Under the pieces are notes generated by a model. It made no database searches, was not told where the DNA came from, and worked only from the letters and a program-made list of their open reading frames with translations. From positions 1-64,000 of the forward strand of contig JADGCV010000026.1 in the NCBI GenBank assembly GCA_015228815.1: 64,000 bases of DNA, read 5' to 3'. The position numbers were made by a program, and so were the translations under genes. This DNA comes from Magnetococcales bacterium. GTDB taxonomy: Bacteria; Pseudomonadota; Magnetococcia; Magnetococcales; UBA8363. Below, piece by piece: positions 4,634 to 22,106 of this stretch; the stretch's first letter is position 1, and each line of letters opens with the position of its first letter.

Positions 4634-6676
4634 TCAGCAGTTCGTGGGAATGAACCGTCCGCCCGCCATTCTCTGATGAATCGCCGCCAACGCCTCCATC
4701 CCCTGATGTCCGGTTGGCGCCTTCAACGGCGCCGGTCCCCCTCTGGCACGATCCATCCGTCCATTCAACGTCACGAAAATACGCTTGAGGGCGCCTACAT
4801 CCCCCGGAGAAACAATTTCCAACCGCGGTGATGTCAGCTCGAACAAATGCTCCCAGGCGGAAATGGCGGTGGTGATCACAAGACACTCGTGACACGCGGC
4901 ATCCAGCAATGCCCGCGGATACAACGGCGCCACCAGGGCGCTCCGATAGGGAAGGACCATGACATCCACCCGCCCCCCGATCCCGCCATCCACCCCGGAC
5001 TCCACCAGGTCCACCCGCTCCGTCAACCCAAGCTTCTGAAGGGTTTTCCGAACCGTTACCACCCTCTGCCCCTCCTCCACGACGAGAAGAAGACGCAACC
5101 GCGGATTGTCCGCCACCGCCATGGCCAACGCCCGCAACAGATCGTCGATCCCTTCCAACGGAGTCCCCATCCCCGAAAATCCCAACCGAATCACATCCGG
5201 TCCCGGTTTCCATTCCCCGAATGTCGGCCCCTGCCATGGACGCAACGGTTCGACCAACCCCGGACACTGAAAAACCTTCGCGCATCCCATGGCGGTCAGC
5301 GCCCGTGCCGTCGCCGCCTCCATCGTCAGATGCCCCCCCGCGACCCTTCCGGCGCGACGCGACAAAAATCCCGGATTGCCAAGCATCGCCCGTCCCACGA
5401 GCCAGGGATCATCGGCCAGAGACCGGAACGTCGCCCAATCCCATGCCACCGCCCTCCCCCCATAATGAAGCAGAATTCTTTCACCCGGAAAGGCCATCCA
5501 AGAAGTCACCCAGGCCCAGGCCGGAGAAGGAAGAAGCAGGTGCAATACCGCCAGGTCGTTGCCAATGCGTCGGTCGAGCGAACGCAGCCAGAACCACAGA
5601 TCCAAAATGCGCCGTCCCGTCGAAAAAGCCCGATACCGCTCGAAGTGATGCCGCTCCAGCCCATACAGGAGATCCGGCAGAAAATGACGTGGCGGATGGC
5701 CCTTGCGGGTCAATCCTTCGATGAGCCGGGTGTACAACACAACCTGATCCCAGGTTTGCGGCCATGCCAATGCCAGGACCACCTCCGAGGCATGGGAACG
5801 GGTGGCGAAGGTGGTGGACTCGCCGCCCCGCTCCCGGATCCTCATCGCCGCCACCAGCAGATCACATCCTTGCTGCTCGAAAAAACCCGTGACCGACTCC
5901 GATTCCAGAGCCGCCAATTCCTGGTCCCAATGGATGTTCCAATGGGCATAATGCTCCGCCGCGGCCCGATCCATGCGACCGGGATGGACGACAAGTTCCG
6001 GTATTTCCGTCCCCGTCCCCTCCCGGTGGGCCGCGAACATCTCCCGCGCCGCCTCCAGGGAAAAACGTCCCGCCCAGTCGAGGCCCATCGGTTTCAGGGA
6101 AAGGGCATGGCGCACCCGCGGGGCCAGACGCCAACTGATCCAGGAGGACAGATTGACCCGCCCCTGGGGCGTCCATCCCCGCCAATCCCAACCCCCGCAC
6201 CCGCGAATGGGCACCTTGTAGGATTCCAACAAAGATCGCAGGACAAACCACAGCGGCGGGAACAGGTGGACCTGCTGGTGGCTGTTGATGAAATCCAGAC
6301 TCAACCCCAATTCGACGAACCGATCGATCTGGTCCGCCACCTCCCGCCGCAGGGCAGGAAGAATCCAGGGCTTGAGCGCCACCAGGCGAAACAATCGCCC
6401 CCGACCATCAGGCAAGCGTCCACGCCGGTCGAGAATCGGTTTCAACCCCCGATCATCCCCGCGCAAGGGACGTTCCTCCGACAACACCAGATGGACCCCT
6501 GTCAGGACACCGGTATTTTTCAATTGCGAGACCCGCTCCAGACGGGCCGCCGGATGACACATGACACTGACACCGGTAATGGCCTGACGCCGCGCCAGGC
6601 TCAAGATTCCCTCGTTGATGCCGTCGGTCAAACCATAATCGTCGGCGGTGATCGCCAAGGGACCAAAAGGTGTCAT
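4634..6676 (-). CDS. YdjC/ChbG-type deacetylase fused to a glycosyltransferase-like domain
   Basis: The 680-residue product combines two activities. Residues about 1-290 are a YdjC/ChbG (HpnK-like) carbohydrate deacetylase: ITADDYGLTDGINEGIL carries the metal-binding aspartates, GVHLVL and INSHQQVHLFP the metal-binding histidines. Residues about 300-640 look like a GT-B glycosyltransferase. The C-terminal half has LGFSGMGTPLEGIDDLLRAL, a DVMVLPYRSALVAPLYPRAL acceptor/donor segment and LLDAACHECLVIT, as in GT4 proteins. The likely role is deacetylation and sugar transfer during polysaccharide or glycolipid assembly. It starts 22 bp after the exporter permease gene ends and is probably translated from the same mRNA. 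The fusion is one uninterrupted reading frame. The glycosyltransferase half is divergent, so its activity is less certain than the deacetylase. Confidence 0.8.
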   Translation of the reverse strand: MTPFGPLAITADDYGLTDGINEGILSLARRQAITGVSVMCHPAARLERVSQLKNTGVLTGVHLVLSEERPLRGDDRGLKPILDRRGRLPDGRGRLFRLVALKPWILPALRREVADQIDRFVELGLSLDFINSHQQVHLFPPLWFVLRSLLESYKVPIRGCGGWDWRGWTPQGRVNLSSWISWRLAPRVRHALSLKPMGLDWAGRFSLEAAREMFAAHREGTGTEIPELVVHPGRMDRAAAEHYAHWNIHWDQELAALESESVTGFFEQQGCDLLVAAMRIRERGGESTTFATRSHASEVVLALAWPQTWDQVVLYTRLIEGLTRKGHPPRHFLPDLLYGLERHHFERYRAFSTGRRILDLWFWLRSLDRRIGNDLAVLHLLLPSPAWAWVTSWMAFPGERILLHYGGRAVAWDWATFRSLADDPWLVGRAMLGNPGFLSRRAGRVAGGHLTMEAATARALTAMGCAKVFQCPGLVEPLRPWQGPTFGEWKPGPDVIRLGFSGMGTPLEGIDDLLRALAMAVADNPRLRLLLVVEEGQRVVTVRKTLQKLGLTERVDLVESGVDGGIGGRVDVMVLPYRSALVAPLYPRALLDAACHECLVITTAISAWEHLFELTSPRLEIVSPGDVGALKRIFVTLNGRMDRARGGPAPLKAPTGHQGMEALAAIHQRMAGGRFIPTNC

Positions 6677-6698
6677 CGCGCACCCCCAGACGGATTGT

Positions 6699-7583
6699 TC
6701 ATGCCCCCAACCGTTCCAGAATGACCGGTATCGCCAGGCGGTAATAGATCAGCGCCAGAAAGAAAACAACCACGATCCCTCCCGTCAACCACAGAAGCCC
6801 CCCAGGATCGGCCAGCGTTCCCCTGGCCAGGCAATCCCTGGCCGCCTGAAGGATCGGGGTGACGGGGTTGACGTTGACGATCATGGAATAGGGCCAGCTT
6901 TGTGGCGGCGGATAGACAATGGGCGTCAGGAAAAAGGCCAGGCGCAGAAAAATGGTGATCCCCTCCTTGACATCCTTGTACAGCGCGCCGATGGGGACCA
7001 GAAACAGACCCACCGTCGCCCCCAGAAGGATCAGCACCAGGATCACGAACGGAGCCAACGCCACCGTCCAATGCCATGCGACGCCAAAATAGAGCATGGC
7101 CGCGAAAGCGATCATCAGTTGCAGCACCGATACGAACAGGACCTGGCCAACCGCCGCCAGAATCGGCGCCTCCCGCGGCATGTTGATCTTGATCATGATC
7201 GGGACACACGATTCGAACAGGGTCATCGGCGCCATGACGCTTTCGGTGAATATTTGCCACAGGAGGGTCCCCAGCATGACATACACCGGATAGGGAATTT
7301 CGGTGGCGCCAAGATTCAGAATCGACTTTTCGTTGAGAAACACAAAAATGGCCGTGGTCACGATCGGCGGGATCAACAGCCAGAGAAATCCAAAAACCGA
7401 CTGCCGGTACCGCTGCTGGAGGTCACGCCGGAAAAGACGCCACGCCAGATCACGGGAATCGACGACATCACGCCACGCCAGGCGGAAAAAATCGAGGGGA
7501 TGACGCAGTGGCGATTCGGAGGAATACACCCGCTCCACCAGGATCGTTTTGCGCTCGGGTTCGGTCATATCGATGGTCCCCAT
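6699..7583 (-). CDS. ABC-2 type polysaccharide/lipid export permease (Wzm/KpsM-like)
   Basis: This is an inner-membrane permease of an ABC exporter for O-antigen, capsule or similar glycans. The 294-residue product has a cytosolic N-terminus of about 60 residues. The amphipathic DLAWRLFRRDLQQRYRQSVFGFLW block is typical of Wzm/TagG families; the first membrane helix and about five more follow. The IMIKINMPREAPILAAV cytosolic loop is the usual coupling element for the ATPase. The KpsT/Wzt ATPase gene expected next to it is absent, and the next gene upstream is an unrelated sensor-like protein. The ATPase must be elsewhere or shared. It lies in a two-gene unit with the downstream deacetylase-glycosyltransferase, which supports a polysaccharide role. 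Confidence 0.88.
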   Translation of the reverse strand: MGTIDMTEPERKTILVERVYSSESPLRHPLDFFRLAWRDVVDSRDLAWRLFRRDLQQRYRQSVFGFLWLLIPPIVTTAIFVFLNEKSILNLGATEIPYPVYVMLGTLLWQIFTESVMAPMTLFESCVPIMIKINMPREAPILAAVGQVLFVSVLQLMIAFAAMLYFGVAWHWTVALAPFVILVLILLGATVGLFLVPIGALYKDVKEGITIFLRLAFFLTPIVYPPPQSWPYSMIVNVNPVTPILQAARDCLARGTLADPGGLLWLTGGIVVVFFLALIYYRLAIPVILERLGA

Positions 7584-7646: not shown

Positions 7647-10600
7647 TCAGGCCCGTCCACCGACATTGAAACTCCAGCGTTTGTCGTAGAGTTCCAACAT
7701 TTTCCAGTGAACGATGGGAATTTCCATCAATCCCTCGTCGCGCATGCGAAACAGTTCGACCGGTTCGAGCGCCCGGACAACACAACCCCGCATCATGGGA
7801 TTGAGGAAATTGTTCTCGCCAAACGCCCCCCCCGACGCCAACACATCCACCTCGCCCCCCGCGGCATCCCCGAGACGCACACGCCCACTGCCGACCAGCC
7901 ATAACGTGTGCCGTTCATGAAGAGACAGTTCCTCTCCCGCCGCCAGAGCGATGGGGACGAGGCCACGGGCGAGACGGTCCAGGGTAAAGGAGGTCGTCGC
8001 CTCGCCAAAAAGCCAGGTCTTGCGCAAGAATCTGATTCTTTTCATGACCTCGACAAAATCCTGCTTCAATCCGTTTCGTTCCAGGAAATCAAGCATTCCC
8101 GCGTGCGACAGGCGAATGACCATGCAATCGGAAATGCTGCGCAGGGTCCATGAATCCTCCGATTCGAGCCCGAGAAAATCGATTCCTCCGAGAAACGATC
8201 CGATCGACAGATGGTTGACGACCTCGTTGCACGATTCCAGATAGGCCACGGTCCCCGAAAGGACCATTTCGAGATAATCGTTGGAATCCCTGGCGCGATG
8301 AATGATGGTTCCCGGATTGTAATGAACCAGTGGCGCCTGGATCAGGTGGTGAATCTGTTCATCCTCGACCTGCGGAAACATGGCCTTGAGAAAACCGAAC
8401 GCCTTGCCGGCCATCAGGTTTTTCTCGCCGCCGATCAGCACGTCCACCGCGCCGAAGGCCGCCTCGGAACCGATCTCCATCTCGGCGGGTGTCAATTTAC
8501 GGTCGATGTGGGCCAGGATCAGCCGGTCCGAGGGATCCTTGCGAAAATCCTCCGCCATTCCATGAATCATACCACCCCCGATGTCGAGTTTCTTCAGATT
8601 GGCAAATTCCAGATAGGTCCGTTTGATGTCCGCCACGACATGCGCCGGAATATCGTTCTCACCGGTACCGACCATGCCGTCCAATACCTTGAAGCCCGAA
8701 AGATCGGCCCAATGGGCATAGGTTTTCTCCGCCCCCTCCTCCCCGGCGCGGAACAGGAACATGGTATTTTCCACCGGATGCGGCGAATAGACCGGTTTGA
8801 CCCAAAGACCCTCACAATCGTTCCATTCCAGGGCCTTGAGATCATGGACATCGAAAAAATGATGAAACTGCCGTTCGTCGAGACTCATGAGGGCGGCAAA
8901 TTTTCGCGCGACCGACGCACGCACCACGGGAGCGGCAAAATAACGGACGCGCCGATCGGTCCGGATCAGGGCGGGCAATCCGGCGAAATGGTCATCGTGG
9001 GCATGGGTGTGGAATATGCCGTCCACCTCGGAGATGTCGATCCCCAGGGCAGTCAACACCTGCAATACCCCCGGCCCGGCATCGATCAAATAGACACGCC
9101 CATGAAAAAGAATGACGCTCGACATGCTGGGACGGGTACGATCCCAACCATCCCCCTGCCCGGTATGAAGGACGGCAAACGGGTGATGACGGGAAATGTT
9201 GTGCTGCCCCAGGGGATAGGGCGGATCGTAGGTCGCCCCCGGCGGCAGGTTGAGATCGACGTCCGCCGAGGCCCCGCGATAGAAAAAACGATAGGTGTTC
9301 AAAGCGATCCGCGCCACGCGAACGCCGTTGCGAATCTCGACCGCCTCGCCATCGACATACAGGGAATCGAGCATCTGCGACGGCTCGCGAATGGCTCCGA
9401 AGGCGAATTTCAGTTTAAACTTCATCATCAACCCGGCGGTGTCCTCGTCCATCCCCTCCGCCATCAGTTCCTCCCTGCCCAGAAGCCCGTAATTGCCACG
9501 GTGGATGTATTGCATCTGCGCCCGGACCTGGGATTCCCGTCCGATCAGCATCGGCTTGACACCGGTATTGTTGGGGTGTTTGGGAAGGATCATCCCCTGA
9601 CGGTACAACATCTGCAACACCGGAAACTCGGCCAAATTGGCAAAGCCACCGTTTTGAATCAGCAGGTCGGACAGAAGGATCACATTGGGTCCCGTTTCCC
9701 AGGTCATCCCATCCCTGCCGGTTCGCTGAATCAGTCCCCGATGCATCAAATGTTTGACGACCTCTCCGGGACAGCCGCACAAAATGTAGAGTCCCGCCTC
9801 GGGAATCTGCATCCAGATCACGCCGGGGATCACCTGAATCGTCCTCAGATTGTGCATGGCTTCGCGCAAGGCGCTTTCCGCCTGCTTGCGGACCGATATT
9901 TCCTTTTCCAGTTCACCGGTTCGCGCCCGAACCTGCCGCCGCAACACCAGGTTGACGGCGAACAGAAAAACCACCGTCCCGCCACCCGCGCTCAAGGCCC
10001 ACCAGAACCATGGAGGAATCAATACCTTTTTCTCGCCGCCGAACCATTGATTGAACGCGGCATGATAAATCGACGATTCATCCCCCTTGAGCGCCTTGAG
10101 ATGACGGTCGATCGTGGCGATCAACCCGGCATGGGTCCCCTCCTTGACGGCATAACGAATTTCCATGGCACAACAAACGATCGGACTCTTGAACACCGCG
10201 TAGGCATGATCGATGACCATCCCTGTCGCCCGGGAGATGATCCCCGCATCGGCATCCCCCTCCTCGACCCGGGAAAGGACTTCGTCATAACTGTTGACAT
10301 AAATCATGTCATAGGAAAAATCAAAATCGTGCAGCAGTTTCTCGATTCCGGAAGTATAGATATCCCCCGTGACCCCGACGAGAAGTCGGTCCTTGAGCCA
10401 TAATACGGAATCGGCTTCCTTTTCAGTGGTATAAACCTGACCCCAGTTGGAAAACACCGTCTGTCTGGTGAAATCGAAGGCCCGGTCGCGTTCCTCGGTA
10501 TAGGCGATGGCGGGCAACAGGTCGATCTCCCCCTGTTCGAGACGCTTGAGGCACTCCTCCCAGGTCCCCGGAATAAAATGAAGATTCCATCCTTCCTCCC

Positions 10601-10796
10601 GGGCGATGTACTTGAGGATGTCGATATAGAATCCCTGGGTTTCTCCGTTGTCATCGACGGAAAGACCCGGAGGATTCTGATAGACCCCGACACGAACCGA
10701 GGTCGTCTGCACGGCCCGGGCCACGGAAACCAAACCCGTCAACACCACGCAAACCACGAGAATCCGTACCGCCCCGTTCACCCAGTTGTGCGCCAT
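7647..10796 (-). CDS. Membrane protein with solute-binding sensor, metallo-beta-lactamase and cNMP-binding-like domains
   Basis: From ATG 10796 the product is 1049 residues, with a signal peptide ending ARA. Residues about 30-255 are a family-3 solute-binding domain (VRVGVYQNPPGLSVDDNGE, LEQGEIDLLPAIAYTEERDR). One membrane helix (about 262-285) and a short coiled coil (about 290-318) follow, so the rest should be cytoplasmic. After a domain of about 200 residues I do not recognise comes a metallo-beta-lactamase fold with the metal motif HTHAHDDH (about 596-603), DAGPGVLQVL and later histidines. The C-terminus has two cyclic-nucleotide-binding-like beta-barrels, the first with YNPGTIIHRARDSNDYLEMVLSG and the second with AAGEELSLHERHTLWLVGSG and GGAFGE. 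An upstream ATG at 10922 adds 42 residues without signal character. It looks like a one-protein receptor with an enzymatic output; ligand and substrate are unknown. Confidence 0.78.
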   Translation of the reverse strand: MAHNWVNGAVRILVVCVVLTGLVSVARAVQTTSVRVGVYQNPPGLSVDDNGETQGFYIDILKYIAREEGWNLHFIPGTWEECLKRLEQGEIDLLPAIAYTEERDRAFDFTRQTVFSNWGQVYTTEKEADSVLWLKDRLLVGVTGDIYTSGIEKLLHDFDFSYDMIYVNSYDEVLSRVEEGDADAGIISRATGMVIDHAYAVFKSPIVCCAMEIRYAVKEGTHAGLIATIDRHLKALKGDESSIYHAAFNQWFGGEKKVLIPPWFWWALSAGGGTVVFLFAVNLVLRRQVRARTGELEKEISVRKQAESALREAMHNLRTIQVIPGVIWMQIPEAGLYILCGCPGEVVKHLMHRGLIQRTGRDGMTWETGPNVILLSDLLIQNGGFANLAEFPVLQMLYRQGMILPKHPNNTGVKPMLIGRESQVRAQMQYIHRGNYGLLGREELMAEGMDEDTAGLMMKFKLKFAFGAIREPSQMLDSLYVDGEAVEIRNGVRVARIALNTYRFFYRGASADVDLNLPPGATYDPPYPLGQHNISRHHPFAVLHTGQGDGWDRTRPSMSSVILFHGRVYLIDAGPGVLQVLTALGIDISEVDGIFHTHAHDDHFAGLPALIRTDRRVRYFAAPVVRASVARKFAALMSLDERQFHHFFDVHDLKALEWNDCEGLWVKPVYSPHPVENTMFLFRAGEEGAEKTYAHWADLSGFKVLDGMVGTGENDIPAHVVADIKRTYLEFANLKKLDIGGGMIHGMAEDFRKDPSDRLILAHIDRKLTPAEMEIGSEAAFGAVDVLIGGEKNLMAGKAFGFLKAMFPQVEDEQIHHLIQAPLVHYNPGTIIHRARDSNDYLEMVLSGTVAYLESCNEVVNHLSIGSFLGGIDFLGLESEDSWTLRSISDCMVIRLSHAGMLDFLERNGLKQDFVEVMKRIRFLRKTWLFGEATTSFTLDRLARGLVPIALAAGEELSLHERHTLWLVGSGRVRLGDAAGGEVDVLASGGAFGENNFLNPMMRGCVVRALEPVELFRMRDEGLMEIPIVHWKMLELYDKRWSFNVGGRA

Positions 10797-11135: not shown

Positions 11136-14100
11136 ATGAAACTCTTCCGCAGGAATCGCCAACGGTTCGATGACCAGAACATTGCGCAGCGAAATGCCCC
11201 CGCGCCGATCGCCTTTGCCCTGGAGCCAAGGATCATGTTCGATGGCGCCGCCCCGGAAACGTGGAGCGACCTCCAGGTACCACCGCACCCCGAGGCGGAG
11301 GCAATTTCGGAGCCGCAACCGGTGCAATCCGGTCCACACTCCGGGGAACAGGAAGGAAATCACCCCCTGCGGGAGGTGGCCGTCATCGATACCGGAATCG
11401 CCGAATATCAATCCCTGATCGACGCCCTGAAGGGAAAAGAAAACGATGGCGCGGACACCATCGAAGTGGTTTTGATCGAAGGGGGACAGAGTGGTCTGGC
11501 GCGGTTGGCGGCGTGGGCACAACATCGGGAACAGGTCGATACCCTGCACCTATTCACCCACGGTTCCCCCGGATTGATCACCCTGGGAAGCGATGTCCTG
11601 ACCTTCGACACCCTGAAGAATTCAGAGACGGCTGCGGTTTTGGCAGCGTTGGGTCATGCCTTGACCGAGGATGGAAACATTTTGATCCATGGTTGCACCG
11701 TGGCGGCCCATGCCGAAGGGAACGACTTCATCACCCTCCTGGCGCACGAGACCGGAGCCGACGTGGCCGCATCCATCGACGCCACGGGAGCCTCCCGCCT
11801 TGGAGGAGATTGGGACCTTGAACGGGCGACCGGTCCGATCGAGTCGAACATCCTGGAACATCTTGCCCGAAACGACCCCTTCGACCATCTCCTGGAGACC
11901 GTCACCTTCGTCGCCGGCGATCTTGTCAACAACACCGATGCGTTCACCAAATCCATCGGCGGTCAGACGTTCACGATCACCCCCGGGTCCAGCCCTTTTA
12001 TCAACATTCAGACCGACATCCCCGCCTTGACCGGACTGTATGTCCTGAACTCCGACCTGAGTGCCGGAAACGGTACTGAATTCACCCTTGCCGCCCCCAC
12101 CAACTACACCTTCGACCTGGGGTCCTTTCAATATACCAGCGACCGGGGCGCCCAATCCCTGACGCTGACCCTGACCCTCATCGACAACACGACCGATGCC
12201 CAAACCTATGCCACCACCGGGAACTCCACCGTCCAAACCTTCAATACCTTCACCACGGCGGCGGAAGATGTGAGAAGCATCAAATTCGTCACCAACGAAT
12301 TGATCTACTACAACAATTTCGTCATCACCGACGTCAAGCCGATCCCGACCGCCCCCACCGTTGCCTCGGTCAGTTCCGACACCGCCAACGGCTCCTACAA
12401 GGTTGGGGATACGGTCGATGTCAAGGTCACCTTTTCCGAAGCGGTCACCGTGACCGGGACGCCGCAAATCACCCTGGAAACCGGGACCACCGACCGGACC
12501 GTCGATTATTCCAGCGGCTCGGGGACCACCGAGCTTCATTTCACCTATACCGTGCAGGCTTCCGATACCTCCAGCGACCTTGACGTCACCGGGACCACGG
12601 CCCTCGCGCTCAATGGCGGAACCATCGCCAGTACCGCGACCACCACCAACGCCACCCTGACACTGGCGGCGCCGGGGGCCGCCAACTCCCTGGGCAATGC
12701 CAAGGCCCTGGTCATCGACACCACCGCGCCCACCGTGGCATCGGTCACCTCCACCACGGCCAACGGTACCTACAAAACGGGCGACGCCGTCAACGTCACC
12801 GTCAACTTTTCGGAAAACGTCACCGTCACCGGGACCCCGACCCTCACCCTGGAGACCGGGACCACCGACCGCACCATCGATTATGTCAGTGGTTCGGGAA
12901 CCAGCGCCCTCGTCTTCACCTATACCGTCCAGGCGGGCGATACCAGCGCCGACCTGGACTATACCGCCACAACCGCCCTGGCCCTCGGTGGAGGAAGCAT
13001 CAACGATACCGCTGGCAACGCCGCGACCCTCACCCTCGCCACCCCCGGCGCCGCCAATTCGCTCGGCAACGCCAAGGCCCTCGTCATCGACACCACCGCG
13101 CCCACCGTCTCCTCGGTCACCTCCACCACGGCCAACGGTACCTACAAGACAGGCGACGCCGTCAACGTCACCGTCAATTTTTCGGAAAACGTCACCGTCA
13201 CCGGGACCCCGACCCTCACCCTGGAGACCGGGACTACCGACCGCACCGTCGATTATGTCAGTGGTTCGGGAACCAGCGCCCTCGTCTTCACCTATACCGT
13301 GCAGGCGGGCGACTCCAGCGCCGATCTTGACACGACCGCCACCACCGCCCTGGCCCTCAACGGAGGCAGCATCAATGATGGCGCCGGCAACAGTGCAACC
13401 CTTACCCTCGCCGCCCCAGGGGCCGCCAATTCGCTGGGCAATGCCAAGGCCCTTGTCATCGATGGCGTCGCGCCGACGGTCGCCTCGGTCTCGTCCAGCA
13501 CCGCCGATGGTTCCTACAAGGCGGGAGACGCCGTCAACATCACAGTCAACTTTTCGGAAAACGTCACCGTCACCGGCACCCCGACCCTCACCCTGGAGAC
13601 GGGGACCACCGACCGCACCATCGATTATGTCAGCGGCACGGGATCATCGGCTCTGGTGTTCACCTACACGGTTTCCGCCGGAGATACCGCCAGCGACCTC
13701 GACTACACCGCGACAAACGCCTTGAGCCTGAATGGTGGTGGCATCGCCGACAGTGCCGGCAACAGCGCGACCCTCACGCTCGCCGCCCCCGGCGCCGCCA
13801 ATTCGCTGGGCAATTCCAAGGCCCTCGTCATCGACACCACCGTCCCCACGGTAACCTCAGTCACCTCGACCAGCAACAACGGCACCTATTATCCCGGCAA
13901 CACCATCAACGTCACCGTCACTTTTTCCGAGGCCGTCACCGTCACCGGCACCCCGACCATCACCCTGGAAACGGGAACCACCGACCGTGACGTCGCCTAT
14001 GCCAGCGGCTCCGGAACGAACACCCTGGTCTTTACCTATACGGTGCAGAGCGGCGACAACAGCGCCGACCTGGACTATACCGCCACCACTGCCCTTTCCC

Positions 14101-17100
14101 TCGGAGGCGGCAGTATCAACGATACCGCCGGCAACGCCGCGACCCTCACCCTTGCCGCCCCCGGCGCCGCCAATTCCCTCGGCGCCAACAAGGCATTGGT
14201 TGTGGCCCTGGCCCCTTCGGTCACATCGGTTTCCGCCACCACCGCCAACGGAAGTTACAAGAGCGGTGACGCCATCGCGGTAACGGTCACCTTTTCGGAG
14301 GCAGTGACCGTCACCGGAACGCCGACGATCACCCTGGAAACGGGCACCACCGACCGCAACGCCACCTATGCGAGCGGTTCCGGAACCACAACCTTGACCT
14401 TTAATTACACCGTTCAGGCCGGCGACGGCAGCGGCGATCTCGATTATACCGCGACCAACGCCCTGGGCCTGAACGGCGGCACCATCCAAAACGGCCAAGC
14501 CGTCGCCGCGAGCCTCACCCTCGCCAGTCCCGGCGCCGCCAACTCCCTCGGCGCCAACAAGGCGATCGTCATCGACACCACCAGTCCCACCGTTTCCTCG
14601 GTCAACGCCACCACCGGCGACGGTTCCTACAAACAGGGCGATACGATCAACATAATCGTCAACTTCTCCGAAGCCATCACCGTCGCCACCGGCGGCGGCA
14701 CCCCCTACCTGACCCTGGAGACGGGAACCACCGACCGCAACGCCACCTATGCCAGCGGCACGGGATCGACCACGCTTGTCTTTTCCTACACCGTCCAGGC
14801 AGGCGACACTTCGAGCGATCTTGAGGCCGTTTCCACCGCTGCCCTCGTGTCCAACGGCGGCACCCTCAAGGATACCGCCGGAAACGACGCCACCCTCACC
14901 CTCGCAAGCCCCGGCGCCGCCAACTCCCTTGGTGCCAACAGGGCGATCGTCATCGATACCACCAGCCCTACTGTTTCGTCGGTCAGCGCCTTCACCGCCA
15001 ACGGCTCCTATAATGGCGGTATCGTCATCGTGACCGTCACCTTTTCCGAGGCCATCACCGTCGCCTCCGGTATTGGCGCCCCCTACCTGACCCTGGAGAC
15101 GGGAACCATCGACCGCAATGCCATTTATATCAATGGTTCGGGATCGACTTCTCTTGCCTTTCTTTACATCGTTCAGGCGGGTGACACATCGAGCGACCTG
15201 GACGCCGTGTCCACCGCGGCCCTCGTATTGAACGGCAGCACCTTCAAGGATGCCGCCGGCAACGACGCCACCCTCACCCTTGCCAGCCCCGGCGCCGCCA
15301 ACTCCCTCGGCGCCAACAAGGCGATCGTCATCGACACCACCAGCCCCACGGTTTCCTCGGTCACCTCCACCACCGCCAACGGCTCCTACAAACAAGGCGA
15401 TACCGTCAACGTGACCGTCACCTTTTCCGAGGCCATCACCGTCGCCACCGGTGGTGGCACCCCCTACCTGACCCTGGAGACGGGGACCACCGACCGCAAC
15501 GCCACCTATGCCAGTGGCTCCGGATCAACCGACCTTGTCTTTTCCTACACCGTCCAGGCAGGCGACACTTCGAGCGACCTTGATGCCGTTTCCACCGCCG
15601 CCCTCGTGTCCAACGGCGGCACGCTCAGGGATGCCGCCGGCAACGACGCCACCCTCACCCTGGCCAGTCCTGGCGCCGCCAATTCGTTCGGTGCCAACAA
15701 GGCGATCGTCATCGATACCACCAGTCCCACAGTCACTTCGGTCGGTTCGACAACCGCCAATGGCACCTATTTTCCAGGGAATACCATCGACATTACGGTA
15801 CTGTTCTCGGAAGCGGTGACCGTCACCGGAACACCGACACTCACCCTCGAAACCGGAACCACCGATCGCAGCGTCAATTATTCCAGCGGATCCGGGACCA
15901 CGACCCTTGTTTTTTCTTATACCGTGCAAACAGGGGATCTGAGCAATGATCTGGATTATACCACGACGACCGCCCTGGCCTTGAATGGCGGCACCATCAA
16001 CGATGCCGCAGGAAATGCCGCGACCCTCACCCTGGCGACCCCGGGAAATGCCAACTCCCTGGGAAATGCCAAGGCCATCGTTCTGGCGTCGCTACCCACC
16101 GTCACGGATGTTACCTCAAGCACTGCCAATGGCCTGTACAAGGTGGGTGATACCCTTGCCCTCACCGTCACCTTTACAGAGGCCGTGACCGTCACCGGAA
16201 CCCCAACGATCACCCTGGAAACGGGAACCACCGACCGCAGCGCCACCTATGCCAGTGGTTCCGGAACCACGACCTTGACCTTTAATTACACCGTTCAGGC
16301 CGGCGACGGCAGCGGCGATCTCGATTATACCGCGACCAACGCCCTTGGCCTGAACGGCGGCACCATCCAAAACGGCCAAGCCGTCGCCGCGAGCCTCACC
16401 CTCGCCAGTCCCGGCGCCGCCAACTCCCTCGGCGCCAACAAGGCGATCGTCATCGACACCACCAGCCCCACGGTTTCCTCGGTCACCTCCACCACCGCCG
16501 ACGGTTCCTACAAACAGGGCGATACCGTCAACGTAACCGTCACCTTTTCCGAAGCCATCACCGTCACCACCGGCGGCGGCACCTCCTATTTGACATTGGA
16601 AACGGGGACCACCGACCGCAATGCCACTTATGCCAGTGGTTCGGGATCGACTTCTCTTGTCTTTTCTTACATCGTTCAGGCGGGTGACACATCGAGCGAC
16701 CTGGACGCCGTGTCCACCGCGGCCCTCGTATTGAACGGCAGCACCTTCAAGGATGCCGCCGGCAACGACGCCACCCTCACCCTTGCCAGCCCCGGCGCCG
16801 TCAATTCTCTTGGCAATGCCAAGGCGATCGTCATCGACACCACCCCGGCGGTCGTCAATCGGGTATCCTCCATCACGAGCAATGGCACCTACAAGGAAGG
16901 AGATACCCTGAGGATCACCGTCCATTTTTCCGAAAACGTCACGGTCACGCAAACCCCCACCCTGACACTCGAAACAGGAAAGACCGATCGCGCCGTGAAT
17001 TATGCCAGTGGTTCGGGAACCGACACACTGACATTCACCTACACGATACAACCGGGAGATGTCAGCGAAGACCTTGACACCATCGCCACCACCGCGCTCG

Positions 17101-19154
17101 CACTGAATGGCGGCACGATTGCCGATGCCGCCGGCAACGCCGCTTCGCTCCTCCTTCCCACCCCCGGTTCAAGCCGTTCCCTCGGTCAAAACAAGGATTT
17201 CCTCATCGATACCACCCCTCCCGCCGTCGTCCAGATCACCTCCACCGCTGCCGACACAACCTTCAAGAGCGGAGAGACCATCCCCATATCCGTCCATTTT
17301 TCCGAAACGGTTTTCGTCACCGCCACCCCCGGACTCACCCTGGAGACGGGAACGACCGATCGAACGGCGCGATACCGCCAGGGATCGGGTTCATCGACGT
17401 TGGTGTTCGACTATACGGTGGCTGAGGGTGATTTCAATGGCGATCTGGACCTTGTCGCCTTGAACCCGCTTTCACTTGACGGGGCAACCATCAAGGATGG
17501 CGCGGGACACGCCGCATCCACCCTGCTGCCGGATCCGGGAACCCCGCTTTCGCTCGGTGGATCGAAGAACATCGTCGCCGACGGGATGGCCCCGGCCATT
17601 CTGTCCATCACCTCGCCCGCGGTCGATGGAACCTACAAGGAAGCGGATCGGATCACGGTGACCCTTCATTTTTCGGAGGCGGTCCTGGTAACCGGAACGC
17701 CAACCCTGACGTTGGAGACGGGAACGACCGATCGGGAGGCCATTTTTTCGGGAGGGTCCGGGACTACGGCGATCGATTTTTCCTATACCGTGCAACAAGG
17801 CGATGCCAGTTCGAATCTTGACATCACAGGACCCTCGGCACTGTCTTACAATGGCGGAGCCATTCGCGATCCAGCCGGCAACCCTGCCGATCTTGCGTTG
17901 CCGTCCCCAGGATCCACCCGTTCCCTTGGCCATGGCAGAACGATCATCATCGATACCGCCGCGACGACCCCATCAACGCCCGTCACCCCTGAAACCGCGC
18001 CATCGACCGCGGCAACGACCACCCCTGCCGCATCGTCATCGAATACAACACCCACTGCCTCCACCCCGAATCCGACCCCTCTGATTCCCGTGCCGCCCGT
18101 TTCGACGCCCCTGGTGACCTCATCCGTTGCCGCGCCAAGCACAACCGCCACACCCGGTATCGCCCCCACGGGGCCAATTTTATCCTCTTCCACCAACGTG
18201 GCTGCCGTCGTCACCTTCGCCTCCACGGGGGCCAATCTGGATATCAACAACGGTCCGATCGCCCCCATCGTCACTTTTACCACCTCGACACCGCCACCGA
18301 CGACACTCCCCGCCACCAGCAACCCATCAGCCCCCACCTCCATCCTGGCACCATCCACGGTCGTGTCGCCCAGTCCGCTCGTCGATACCGTCCTGACGAC
18401 GTTTCCGTCCCTGATTCTTCAGCCCTCCACCACGGCAACCGCCCCATCCAGCCCCCCCCCGGTCCCACCCGCCGCGCCAACACCAACAACGCCAGGGCCA
18501 ACCGCGCCCACGGTTTCCCCTTCGGGTACCGGGACCACACCCCCATCCCCCTCCGGAATCACCCTGACTTCCAATGCCGGATTTCCTGTCGCCTCGGGTA
18601 CGCCCGCCATCCCCCCCGGAGCGTCGGGACTGTTTCTGGCCGATGGCATTCCCGACATGAACGCCACCATTGGCGGCAATGTCGATTTTTCCGTCCCTTC
18701 GACCGCCTTTGCCCACTCGGATGGCAACGCGGTCGTACAACTGTCGGCACAGCAGGCGGATGGCCAGTCCCTGCCCAACTGGCTGCAATTCGATCCAAGG
18801 ACGGGAAAGTTTTCCGGCCAGCCCCCGGAAGGATTCGACGGCAATCTGAACATCAAGGTCATCGCTCGGGACAACAATGGCCGCGAAGCGGTCGCGGTAT
18901 TCCGGGTCAAGATGGGTCAGGAACGGACCGGAAACACCGACCGCGGGGCTTCATGGCTGCATCCGTCGGCGATTCGACCCGTTCTGGCTCGCTGGGGGGC
19001 GATGGACAGGGACCAACCCATTCAGGAAGGATCGCCCGGCCTTTCCCGTCAACTGGCACACCATGGCCGGACAGGATGGATCGAGCGTACCCTGCGCTTG
19101 CAACACGCCGCTGAAAGAATGGCTACGTCACGGAACATGGTATCGAAAGGATGA
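11136..19154 (+). CDS. Giant DUF4347/Ig-like repeat surface or secreted protein
   Basis: The 2672-residue product is a large adhesin-like exoprotein. The N-terminus has no classical signal peptide but has the LEPRIMFDGA motif (residues 29-38), found at the start of many giant secreted proteins. A DUF4347 domain follows (about 85-240: LHLFTHGSPGLITLGS, ILIHGCTVA, TGADVAAS, GGDWDLE). After a spacer (about 250-400) come 15 tandem Ig-like repeats (see repeat feature). A Pro/Thr/Ser-rich linker of about 240 residues leads to a cadherin/He_PIG-type domain near the C-terminus (PNWLQFDPRTGKFSGQPPEG, ARDNNGREAVAVFRV). No RTX GGxGxD repeats were seen and no type I secretion genes are adjacent. The role is inferred: surface attachment or biofilm matrix. 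Confidence 0.85.
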   Translation: MKLFRRNRQRFDDQNIAQRNAPAPIAFALEPRIMFDGAAPETWSDLQVPPHPEAEAISEPQPVQSGPHSGEQEGNHPLREVAVIDTGIAEYQSLIDALKGKENDGADTIEVVLIEGGQSGLARLAAWAQHREQVDTLHLFTHGSPGLITLGSDVLTFDTLKNSETAAVLAALGHALTEDGNILIHGCTVAAHAEGNDFITLLAHETGADVAASIDATGASRLGGDWDLERATGPIESNILEHLARNDPFDHLLETVTFVAGDLVNNTDAFTKSIGGQTFTITPGSSPFINIQTDIPALTGLYVLNSDLSAGNGTEFTLAAPTNYTFDLGSFQYTSDRGAQSLTLTLTLIDNTTDAQTYATTGNSTVQTFNTFTTAAEDVRSIKFVTNELIYYNNFVITDVKPIPTAPTVASVSSDTANGSYKVGDTVDVKVTFSEAVTVTGTPQITLETGTTDRTVDYSSGSGTTELHFTYTVQASDTSSDLDVTGTTALALNGGTIASTATTTNATLTLAAPGAANSLGNAKALVIDTTAPTVASVTSTTANGTYKTGDAVNVTVNFSENVTVTGTPTLTLETGTTDRTIDYVSGSGTSALVFTYTVQAGDTSADLDYTATTALALGGGSINDTAGNAATLTLATPGAANSLGNAKALVIDTTAPTVSSVTSTTANGTYKTGDAVNVTVNFSENVTVTGTPTLTLETGTTDRTVDYVSGSGTSALVFTYTVQAGDSSADLDTTATTALALNGGSINDGAGNSATLTLAAPGAANSLGNAKALVIDGVAPTVASVSSSTADGSYKAGDAVNITVNFSENVTVTGTPTLTLETGTTDRTIDYVSGTGSSALVFTYTVSAGDTASDLDYTATNALSLNGGGIADSAGNSATLTLAAPGAANSLGNSKALVIDTTVPTVTSVTSTSNNGTYYPGNTINVTVTFSEAVTVTGTPTITLETGTTDRDVAYASGSGTNTLVFTYTVQSGDNSADLDYTATTALSLGGGSINDTAGNAATLTLAAPGAANSLGANKALVVALAPSVTSVSATTANGSYKSGDAIAVTVTFSEAVTVTGTPTITLETGTTDRNATYASGSGTTTLTFNYTVQAGDGSGDLDYTATNALGLNGGTIQNGQAVAASLTLASPGAANSLGANKAIVIDTTSPTVSSVNATTGDGSYKQGDTINIIVNFSEAITVATGGGTPYLTLETGTTDRNATYASGTGSTTLVFSYTVQAGDTSSDLEAVSTAALVSNGGTLKDTAGNDATLTLASPGAANSLGANRAIVIDTTSPTVSSVSAFTANGSYNGGIVIVTVTFSEAITVASGIGAPYLTLETGTIDRNAIYINGSGSTSLAFLYIVQAGDTSSDLDAVSTAALVLNGSTFKDAAGNDATLTLASPGAANSLGANKAIVIDTTSPTVSSVTSTTANGSYKQGDTVNVTVTFSEAITVATGGGTPYLTLETGTTDRNATYASGSGSTDLVFSYTVQAGDTSSDLDAVSTAALVSNGGTLRDAAGNDATLTLASPGAANSFGANKAIVIDTTSPTVTSVGSTTANGTYFPGNTIDITVLFSEAVTVTGTPTLTLETGTTDRSVNYSSGSGTTTLVFSYTVQTGDLSNDLDYTTTTALALNGGTINDAAGNAATLTLATPGNANSLGNAKAIVLASLPTVTDVTSSTANGLYKVGDTLALTVTFTEAVTVTGTPTITLETGTTDRSATYASGSGTTTLTFNYTVQAGDGSGDLDYTATNALGLNGGTIQNGQAVAASLTLASPGAANSLGANKAIVIDTTSPTVSSVTSTTADGSYKQGDTVNVTVTFSEAITVTTGGGTSYLTLETGTTDRNATYASGSGSTSLVFSYIVQAGDTSSDLDAVSTAALVLNGSTFKDAAGNDATLTLASPGAVNSLGNAKAIVIDTTPAVVNRVSSITSNGTYKEGDTLRITVHFSENVTVTQTPTLTLETGKTDRAVNYASGSGTDTLTFTYTIQPGDVSEDLDTIATTALALNGGTIADAAGNAASLLLPTPGSSRSLGQNKDFLIDTTPPAVVQITSTAADTTFKSGETIPISVHFSETVFVTATPGLTLETGTTDRTARYRQGSGSSTLVFDYTVAEGDFNGDLDLVALNPLSLDGATIKDGAGHAASTLLPDPGTPLSLGGSKNIVADGMAPAILSITSPAVDGTYKEADRITVTLHFSEAVLVTGTPTLTLETGTTDREAIFSGGSGTTAIDFSYTVQQGDASSNLDITGPSALSYNGGAIRDPAGNPADLALPSPGSTRSLGHGRTIIIDTAATTPSTPVTPETAPSTAATTTPAASSSNTTPTASTPNPTPLIPVPPVSTPLVTSSVAAPSTTATPGIAPTGPILSSSTNVAAVVTFASTGANLDINNGPIAPIVTFTTSTPPPTTLPATSNPSAPTSILAPSTVVSPSPLVDTVLTTFPSLILQPSTTATAPSSPPPVPPAAPTPTTPGPTAPTVSPSGTGTTPPSPSGITLTSNAGFPVASGTPAIPPGASGLFLADGIPDMNATIGGNVDFSVPSTAFAHSDGNAVVQLSAQQADGQSLPNWLQFDPRTGKFSGQPPEGFDGNLNIKVIARDNNGREAVAVFRVKMGQERTGNTDRGASWLHPSAIRPVLARWGAMDRDQPIQEGSPGLSRQLAHHGRTGWIERTLRLQHAAERMATSRNMVSKG
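12351..17946 (+). repeat. Fifteen tandem ~124-codon Ig-like repeats
   Basis: Each unit runs from a (A/S)PTVxSVxSxTANGxYKxGD opening, through VTFSEAVTVTGTPxLTLETGT, to AAPGAANSLGxxKAxVID. I count 15 starts. Most units are about 372 nt; units with a GGGTPYLTLETGT insertion are slightly longer. The last three (from about 16850) are the most diverged. Several units are nearly identical in DNA. About 185 nt from 14400 match the segment 1881 bp further on with a single difference, and about 135 nt around 15163-15298 match exactly the segment 1503 bp further on. This indicates recent duplication or gene conversion. Confidence 0.9.
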
Positions 19155-19886: not shown

Positions 19887-22106
19887 ATGGATAAAGATGC
19901 CTTCCTGAAGGAACTTGGCCTGTTTGCGGATCTTGATTCACAGCCTGATTCCGTCCTCAATGGAAACAATATAATCATCAGGTTCCATCAATATGGTGCC
20001 CCTGTTCAGCTTACCCTCGATACCCGAGAAGGATCCGTCATTGAACGTCGTGACGGGAACGAAGTTCGCCACAACACGTACAAAGGATTGCTCGCCTCAC
20101 CTTCTTTCGGCGATCTGAGGCGTTTCACGGAAGTGCAGAAAACGCTGTTGAAAACGGAGTTCCCCTATATCGAAGACACTGCTGCACATCTTCCAATCAT
20201 AGGTGAACTCGCAACGGATGGAACCGAAACAGACACAAACCTTCTTGACGCCATCAAAAGCTGGCTGAACAACACGGCTCCACCGGGATCGCCGGTTCGG
20301 GCACTTGTCATTGACGGTCCCGCCGGGATCGGCAAAACCCACCTGATCAGAAGATTATGTCATGATCGAGTCATGGGTTTCAGCGCCGGTTCGCCACCGC
20401 CGATCCTGCATGTTCAGAGTCGTGGAAAACAATTGACCTCCTTGAACGATGTCATCGCCGGCACACTTCAATTCCTGCGACTGCGCCTGACCTACTTCCA
20501 GGTTCCAATACTGGTTCGGCATGGTTTGATTCAGGTCGCCATCGATGGATTCGATGAAATGGCCGATCCCAATGGCTATAATACGGCATGGGGGACGCTC
20601 GGGGAGTTCATCAAGGACTGCGCGGGCGGCACCTTACTGCTGGCCGGTCGCGATACGTTCATCGATGTCGAAACGGTCAAGAATGCGCCGATTGGTCTGA
20701 ATTCCTCCGTCATCTCGGCCGTTCATCTGCGCCATCTGAGGGCGGACGAAGCCAGGGAATGGCTTGGGTCTCAGGGATGGGACAAAAGCAAAATCAAGGA
20801 CATGGACAACCTTCTCGAAGAGGGATCCTACACCTTGCGTCCTTTTTTCATCAGCGAAATCAACAAAAAATTAAAAAACGAAGAAGAATGCGGCTTCTTT
20901 CTTTCTTTTCCGCTTCGCTCATTGATCGATTCCATTCTTGAACGCGAAGCAAAAATACTCGCCAGAACGAATACCAGCCCGGAACAAACAGATAAAATAA
21001 AAGAGCGATTATCCGCCTTTTTCATTGAAGTCGCCCGGGATATGGCAGATTGCGAAAGCGAATCCATCGATCAAGACAACCTTGTTCTCATTCTGGAACT
21101 GGTATTCAAAGATCATGTCCCAGAGGATGTCCTCCGATCCCTGCGCCACAGGGTGCAATCGTTTCCCCTTCTTGAAAGAGAGGGAAACAACGAAAATCGC
21201 CGCTTCCCACATTCCCAAGTCCAGGATTATTTCCTGGGCCTTGCCTATCTGTCCCTCCTGGCGACAGGTTGCGAACGTCCCAAATCCTTGCGCCGCAATG
21301 TCATCGGTATCGACTTCCTCGACATATTTCACGATATTGCCTCAAGCGCCTTTCCCGATGACGTGATCCGTTTCCGCGATGGTGCAATAAGATTGCTCGC
21401 GGATCACGGGTTCGCGGACCGCAGCAGGCAAAACATTGCCGCCATTCTTCTTGCGGCGCTTCCGGCAACCGCCAAACCTGCGTCCAAGACGTGCCTCATC
21501 GAAAACATCTGGTTCGGTGACGTGCTTCTGCGCGGGACCCTGCCTTCGTGCCGTCTTGCACATGTTGGCATTTCATACCTGGATGCCCGTGGCGCGGATC
21601 TTTCGCAAATCCATTTTGAGAACAGCTCGGTCACAAGTCTTGTCGCCGACATGCAGACACGTCTGCCAGACTCATTTCCCGATCCACACTCCCTTTCCAT
21701 CGATGAACACGGACGATCGCGGAAATTACCCAACGAGGATATGTCGAAATGGATCGAAAAACAGAAACCCGGCCAGGAAAAGGCACGGAATGGCACGCAA
21801 GAACATTTTTACAACGAATACCTTGACTACTTTGAACGGCTTTGCCGCGTGATCATTCGCCAGGGATGGATTCGTATGGCAAAAGACGACAGTGCGGGAA
21901 AACTGCTGGAGGATGATCGATGGCCAAACATTCGTGATGAACTTGACAGGCTGAAATTTCTTGAGGCGTCCTTTACGAAGCCTGCCTCCGGACAAAACGC
22001 ACCCTTTGTCCGTATTCGGCGCGCTCGTGAATTGCTGACGCGGCAAACGGACGATCCAGAGATCACTCAGGTCCGCAAAGCCATTATCAATCTTGGGTCG
22101 TCATAA
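19887..22106 (+). CDS. NACHT/STAND-type NTPase
   Basis: The 739-residue product has a Walker A GPAGIGKT (144-151) and a Walker B VAIDGFDEMAD (217-227), with the DGFDE form typical of NACHT NTPases. RFPHSQVQDYFLGLAYLSLL (about 440) matches the FxHxxFQEYF motif that ends the NACHT winged-helix region. The N-terminal 130 residues are an unrecognised domain. The C-terminal half contains a short pentapeptide-like stretch (YLDARGADLSQIHFENSSV, around 565-585) and then a helical region of unknown type. STAND proteins act as sensors that assemble on a trigger and activate an effector; bacterial NACHT proteins are known in phage defence. No nuclease or TIR domain is fused, so the coupled NYN protein is the natural effector candidate. 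Base composition resembles that of its partner and differs from the flanking genes. Confidence 0.8.
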   Translation: MDKDAFLKELGLFADLDSQPDSVLNGNNIIIRFHQYGAPVQLTLDTREGSVIERRDGNEVRHNTYKGLLASPSFGDLRRFTEVQKTLLKTEFPYIEDTAAHLPIIGELATDGTETDTNLLDAIKSWLNNTAPPGSPVRALVIDGPAGIGKTHLIRRLCHDRVMGFSAGSPPPILHVQSRGKQLTSLNDVIAGTLQFLRLRLTYFQVPILVRHGLIQVAIDGFDEMADPNGYNTAWGTLGEFIKDCAGGTLLLAGRDTFIDVETVKNAPIGLNSSVISAVHLRHLRADEAREWLGSQGWDKSKIKDMDNLLEEGSYTLRPFFISEINKKLKNEEECGFFLSFPLRSLIDSILEREAKILARTNTSPEQTDKIKERLSAFFIEVARDMADCESESIDQDNLVLILELVFKDHVPEDVLRSLRHRVQSFPLLEREGNNENRRFPHSQVQDYFLGLAYLSLLATGCERPKSLRRNVIGIDFLDIFHDIASSAFPDDVIRFRDGAIRLLADHGFADRSRQNIAAILLAALPATAKPASKTCLIENIWFGDVLLRGTLPSCRLAHVGISYLDARGADLSQIHFENSSVTSLVADMQTRLPDSFPDPHSLSIDEHGRSRKLPNEDMSKWIEKQKPGQEKARNGTQEHFYNEYLDYFERLCRVIIRQGWIRMAKDDSAGKLLEDDRWPNIRDELDRLKFLEASFTKPASGQNAPFVRIRRARELLTRQTDDPEITQVRKAIINLGSS

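Follow-up and report, generated by a model that had tools for sequence, protein, structure and literature searches.

The long form of tRNase Z, ELAC2, carries a degenerate metallo-β-lactamase (MBL) domain and, behind it in the same chain, an active one. Flavodiiron proteins show the pattern HxExDH, and some diiron MBL-fold proteins serve as sensors. In Dictyostelium GbpA and GbpB, an MBL phosphodiesterase domain precedes two cyclic nucleotide-binding (CNB) domains, and binding of cyclic nucleotide monophosphates (cNMP) to these CNB domains activates the enzymes (PMC11988041). Apyc1 and YhfI cleave cyclic mononucleotides, and Apyc1 is a homodimer in which each chain has one MBL domain (PMC9117128). 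The gene described here belongs to a Magnetococcales bacterium, related to magnetic bacteria, and lies in a 64,000-nucleotide stretch of its genome (referred to as the window). It combines an MBL and two CNB domains with a periplasmic solute-binding protein (SBP) domain, and would thus encode a one-component transmembrane receptor-enzyme.

Domain layout of the candidate receptor-enzyme

The gene is an uninterrupted frame that starts at ATG. Its features, together with the gene that follows it, are listed below in window coordinates.

7647..10796 (-), whole gene, receptor-enzyme of 1049 aa; intact in 16 further Magnetococcales genomes
10713..10796 (-), residues 1-28, hydrophobic N-terminus, either signal peptide or anchor; read from the sequence
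10038..10697 (-), periplasmic SBP_bac_3 domain, residues 34-253, with invariant C208-C209; Pfam PF00497, E 1.5e-19, and structure 3h7m, E 7.7e-12
9942..10016 (-), single transmembrane helix, residues ∼261-285; read from the sequence, in all SBP fusions compared
9843..9941 (-), signalling coiled coil, residues ∼286-318; linker of the type seen in REC-core proteins
9192..9854 (-), residues 315-535, N-domain, probably a pseudo-MBL, degenerate and lacking metal ligands; AF2 pLDDT 93.5, Foldseek
8400..9191 (-), catalytic-type MBL domain, residues 536-799; Pfam, and profile against PDB with Apyc1 at E 5.1e-7
8988..9005 (-), HxHxDH metal motif, residues 598-603; invariant, 113/113
8778..8780 (-), probable metal ligand H673 (SPHP); 113/113
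8703..8705 (-), probable metal ligand D698 (YAHWAD); 113/113
8508..8510 (-), probable metal ligand H763 (LAH); 113/113
8073..8327 (-), residues 824-908, CNB1, no conserved phosphate-binding Arg; Pfam PF00027, alignment
7692..7991 (-), CNB2, residues ∼936-1035; second Pfam stretch, AF2, Foldseek to tandem CNB domains of PKA-R and PKG
6699..7583 (-), gene for an ABC-2 type permease, same strand, 63 bp after the receptor-enzyme gene; Pfam PF01061

The order of SBP_bac_3, helix, coiled coil, MBL, and two CNB domains that an earlier note had read from the DNA was confirmed, with Pfam placing the SBP, MBL, and CNB domains. The cytoplasmic core (residues 310-1049) was modelled with a mean pLDDT of 87.6 and a pTM of 0.90, and the Foldseek matches of this model were mostly tandem CNB domains of PKA-R and PKG.

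The periplasmic domain matched SBP_bac_3 with 70.5 versus 26.4 bits over profile positions 1-131 of 132. Its best solved relative is the sensor protein 3h7m, and polar amino-acid binders are also among the nearest. The adjacent cysteines C208-C209 (CCxxEIRYA) are invariant in the 17 fusions, also occur in the SBP-kinase relatives seen, and could possibly constitute a vicinal disulfide or a metal site. That SBP_bac_3 usually drives kinases or cyclases, as had been noted before, agrees with the relatives, in which histidine kinases and a GGDEF-EAL protein are coupled to this SBP type.

Conservation of the fusion and its neighbourhood

Full-length SBP fusions were present in all eight of the eight genomes of the window's genus (71-80% identity) and, with the same domain order, in nine from a second family (∼53-56% identity), irrespective of the genome as single frames. 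A tree built from 113 core sequences places the 17 SBP fusions (the window's included) in one clade with a support of 96, inside a larger group of REC-core proteins. One exchange of SBP for REC within Magnetococcales would account for this clade, the direction being our reading of a tree without an outgroup. The earlier note had considered that a sequencing error might have joined two separate genes. Such an artefact is ruled out by the 17 intact orthologues, 16 of them in other genomes, and the occurrence of the same fusion throughout the genus and in another family, in one clade, leaves it a negligible chance. A search for a plasmid or phage origin gave no match; likewise, PADLOC found no defence system match for the window protein, and its relatives yielded weak, CNB-driven matches to Pycsar/TIR effectors.

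The ABC-2 type permease gene, which is possibly cotranscribed with the receptor-enzyme gene, is followed by a YdjC-type gene that weakly matches a glycosyltransferase (the two span 4637-7583 on the minus strand). This pair follows the receptor-enzyme gene, with the order kept, in 5/5 same-genus loci examined, and was not seen beside the SBP fusions of the second family. An effect of the receptor-enzyme on polysaccharide export is possible but unsupported. On the other side, a divergent gene (11136-19154, plus strand) encodes a protein of 2672 aa with DUF4347 and many ∼110-residue repeats, probably a large surface or secreted protein; 19887-22103 (plus strand) encodes a protein of 739 aa with a weak NACHT/AAA match.

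The cytoplasmic core is a widespread module

The core (∼730 aa, residues ∼315-1041) is conserved as one unit. Scanning species genomes yielded at least 344 matches, 80 of which were compared and found to be 43-83% identical across nearly all 730 residues (∼43-58% outside the window's genus); these 80 stem from Pseudomonadota, Thermodesulfobacteriota, Planctomycetota, Bacteroidota, Campylobacterota, and SAR324. All of the 48 Magnetococcales genomes examined contain the core, mostly in multiple copies; in a sample of 350 other genomes from the phylum, 7 had it. The window's own genome encodes two paralogues (L002 and L003), both with a C-terminal hemerythrin domain. No curated family was found for the module, and the literature search, which covered open-access texts and is weak evidence of absence, found no description of a hemerythrin/MBL/CNB/SBP module.

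The core occurs in the architectures REC-core, REC-core-hemerythrin, SBP-core, CHASE2-core, core-Zn_protease, and alone. Being joined to REC, SBP, CHASE2, and hemerythrin domains fits the expectation for a signalling output. The earlier note had read the individual domains correctly but missed that the cytoplasmic part is a widespread module with interchangeable sensors. Hemerythrin is very often placed C-terminally of the core (many of loci L088-L135), among others in anammox Planctomycetota, Desulfobacterales, Campylobacterota, and Magnetospirillum, and one SAR324 protein (L125:5995-8679) has a C-terminal Zn_protease domain (PF05618) in its place.

Gene pairs show the same combination split over two proteins. 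At locus L037, an SBP-TM-HisKA-HATPase gene overlaps a REC-core gene by one base, a pair that is the two-component version of the window's fusion, and at loci L038 and L050, an SBP gene overlaps a core gene without an obvious receiver. At L048, an SBP-GGDEF-EAL gene lies 57 bp upstream of a core-hemerythrin gene; elsewhere, REC-core genes are found near genes for hybrid kinases, CheA, CheB, CheY-like proteins, and MCPs. The coiled-coil linker ahead of the core is of one type in SBP-core and REC-core proteins. Gene pairs, neighbours, and shared linker together support a signal-transduction output that would be controlled by the SBP domain.

The catalytic-type MBL domain

The HTHAHDDH motif highlighted previously corresponds to residues 596-603, and the metal site of the MBL domain is intact, with H598, H600, D602, H603, H673, D698, and H763 invariant in 113/113 aligned family members. 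Pfam assigned Lactamase_B (PF00753) to residues 555-613 (E 2.7e-9) and Lactamase_B_2 (PF12706) to residues 569-650 (E 1.6e-9), both above cut-off. This ligand set bears on whether the domain turns over a substrate at all: it could instead sense metal or oxygen, or be purely regulatory, with the core signalling through protein contact. The frequent fusion to hemerythrin and the precedent of sensory diiron MBL-fold proteins would suit such a role, but the standard set of HxHxDH plus H, D, and H, unlike the HxExDH of flavodiiron proteins, and its full conservation across phyla make it improbable.

When the MBL profile was compared with solved structures, Apyc1 was the best match (7u2s at E 5.1e-7, 7u2r at E 1.8e-6), ahead of RNase Z, and comparison with the Apyc1-family proteins of Magnetococcales gave 95.6% probability (E 1.2e-8). 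The likeness is confined mainly to the N-terminal half of the MBL domain, and the window protein scores 18.7 bits against the Apyc1 family PF23023, below its curated cut-off of 50 bits. Separate Apyc1-family proteins above the Pfam cut-off (L136-L142) were found in 7 of 61 genomes searched, all from Magnetococcales.

The N-domain resembles a second MBL

Between the coiled coil and the MBL domain, Pfam has no match, consistent with the earlier note, which had left these ∼200 residues unassigned; what it missed is a probable second, degenerate MBL fold. Modelled alone, this N-domain retrieved MBL-fold proteins as its first 27 Foldseek matches in the PDB. Apyc1 came first, with modest scores (E 1.4e-3, probability 1.00, TM ∼0.4), followed by arylsulfatase, PqqB, RNase J, ELAC1, and RNase Z, and the order of strands and helices parallels, in the models, the first part of the active MBL. 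The sequence-profile match to MBL was not significant (18.8, with shuffled controls reaching 22.0), nor was that of the N-domain profile aligned directly to the active MBL or to Apyc1-type MBLs, although the register agrees with the structural idea. On the strength of the models, the N-domain is probably a degenerate MBL in which ILLSDxxxQNG replaces the HxHxDH segment. It contains 28 invariant residues and is as conserved as the MBL domain itself, which suggests a role in shaping the active site, like a partner subunit in MBL dimers.

A pseudo-MBL followed by an active MBL is also the layout of ELAC2, and RNase Z and ELAC1 are among both the sequence matches of the MBL domain and the structural matches of the N-domain, so that the core might be a receptor-controlled enzyme of RNA processing or a nuclease resembling RNase Z, built like the long tRNase Z. 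Against this speak the weaker profile scores for RNase Z than for Apyc1, the failure to identify an RNA-binding arm, and the fusion to REC, SBP, and hemerythrin domains, which would be unusual in tRNA maturation; we therefore hold such an activity to be hardly likely.

The CNB domains lack a conserved phosphate-binding arginine

The Pfam family cNMP_binding (PF00027) matched in two stretches (E 2.6e-16; 59.8 bits versus a cut-off of 27.5 bits), and Foldseek assigned the fold of a CNB tandem. In the phosphate-binding cassette of CNB1, Glu is present in 60/113 sequences and Arg is not among the eight commonest residues; in that of CNB2, Glu is present in 106/113 and Arg in only 12/113. The signature of cNMP-responsive domains, Glu and Arg in the cassette, is thus conserved in neither CNB1 nor CNB2 of the family of 113 sequences. 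As the phosphate-binding Arg is not conserved, control by cNMP via the CNB barrels, which the earlier note had proposed, is doubtful, and the barrels may have a different ligand or a structural role. A trypanosome-type nucleoside-binding CNB, second in the Foldseek ranking, was considered as well, using Glu at the position of A202 of PKA RI-alpha as the criterion. It was rejected: this key Glu is absent, and position +3 is mostly occupied by S, A, T, G, or N.

The loss of the CNB Arg from barrels that were nevertheless retained raises the question of whether the core, gated by its receptor, hydrolyzes some other signal, be it a cyclic dinucleotide, a linear nucleotide, or a new messenger, with CNB domains that bind a ligand other than cAMP or cGMP. 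The invariant residues of the N-domain, the one core gene adjoining an SBP-GGDEF-EAL gene, and the REC-core genes near CheA, CheB, and MCP genes point in the same direction. The nearest solved relatives of the MBL domain, however, use cyclic mononucleotides, and the nucleoside-binding Glu of trypanosome PKA-R is not the common residue at the matching position. Taken together, we regard such a hydrolase as unlikely, though not far-fetched.

Proposed mechanism

In the proposed mechanism, the periplasmic SBP_bac_3 domain would bind a small solute, and the resulting movement would pass via the one membrane helix and the coiled coil to the cytoplasmic core, consisting of pseudo-MBL, metal-dependent MBL, and two CNB barrels. 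The core would most likely hydrolyze a phosphodiester bond in a signalling nucleotide, like class IIb (MBL) phosphodiesterases, under presumed control by the SBP domain and with the CNB pair as a putative allosteric or structural part. Class III cyclases were found in 48/48 Magnetococcales genomes, with four matches in the window's genome, so that a cNMP substrate could be available. With Apyc1 as the nearest solved relative, the layout of GbpA/GbpB, and cyclases in every Magnetococcales genome, a cNMP phosphodiesterase is the most economical reading, and the phosphodiesterase idea of the earlier note gains support from the first two, by sequence and by analogy (PMC11988041). A receptor-gated class IIb-like phosphodiesterase is hence our best reading, to which we would give an even chance. 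Similarity of the MBL domain does not fix the substrate, and the 28 invariant residues of the N-domain are not explained by the GbpA/GbpB precedent; the substrate may be a different one. More tentatively, and on balance doubtfully, the core may represent an undescribed class of bacterial signalling enzymes, with tandem pseudo-MBL/MBL and CNB domains, that breaks down (or produces) a messenger distinct from cAMP and cGMP and is turned on or off by oxygen through hemerythrin, by phosphorelay through REC, or, in the window protein, by a periplasmic solute.

The core would be a signalling output module, found in all 48 Magnetococcales genomes and in several phyla, that is joined to solute-receptor, receiver, CHASE2, and hemerythrin domains. 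Should its activity be that of a phosphodiesterase, oxygen, phosphorelay, or a solute would directly control an MBL enzyme, in host bacteria that need to find their place along oxygen gradients.

Comparison with known systems

The SBP_bac_3 histidine kinases and GGDEF-EAL proteins (L004, L037, L048) share the SBP type, the one helix, and the coiled coil with the window protein, whose output is the MBL-CNB core instead. The regulatory CNB domains of PKA and PKG resemble those of the core in fold and tandem arrangement, but the window's family lacks a conserved phosphate-binding Arg and has no kinase. ELAC2 likewise combines a degenerate and an active MBL in one chain; sequence gives no evidence of membership, and the CNB and sensor domains are absent from ELAC2. 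Apyc1 (PF23023) is both the nearest solved relative of the active MBL and the best structural match of the N-domain; in contrast to the Apyc1 homodimer (PMC9117128), the window protein has two MBL-like domains per chain, and CNB domains in addition.

As to function, the window protein most likely works like a phosphodiesterase of the GbpA/GbpB type with receptor input, a likeness drawn from layout that does not establish family membership. In layout, GbpA/GbpB (PMC11988041) and the window protein share an MBL with two CNB domains behind it. The window protein differs from GbpA/GbpB by a conserved N-terminal MBL-like domain, and its family by CNB pockets in which no phosphate Arg is conserved and by fused SBP, REC, hemerythrin, and CHASE2 sensors. 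Should it prove to be a phosphodiesterase, it would be a bacterial counterpart to the Dictyostelium layout.
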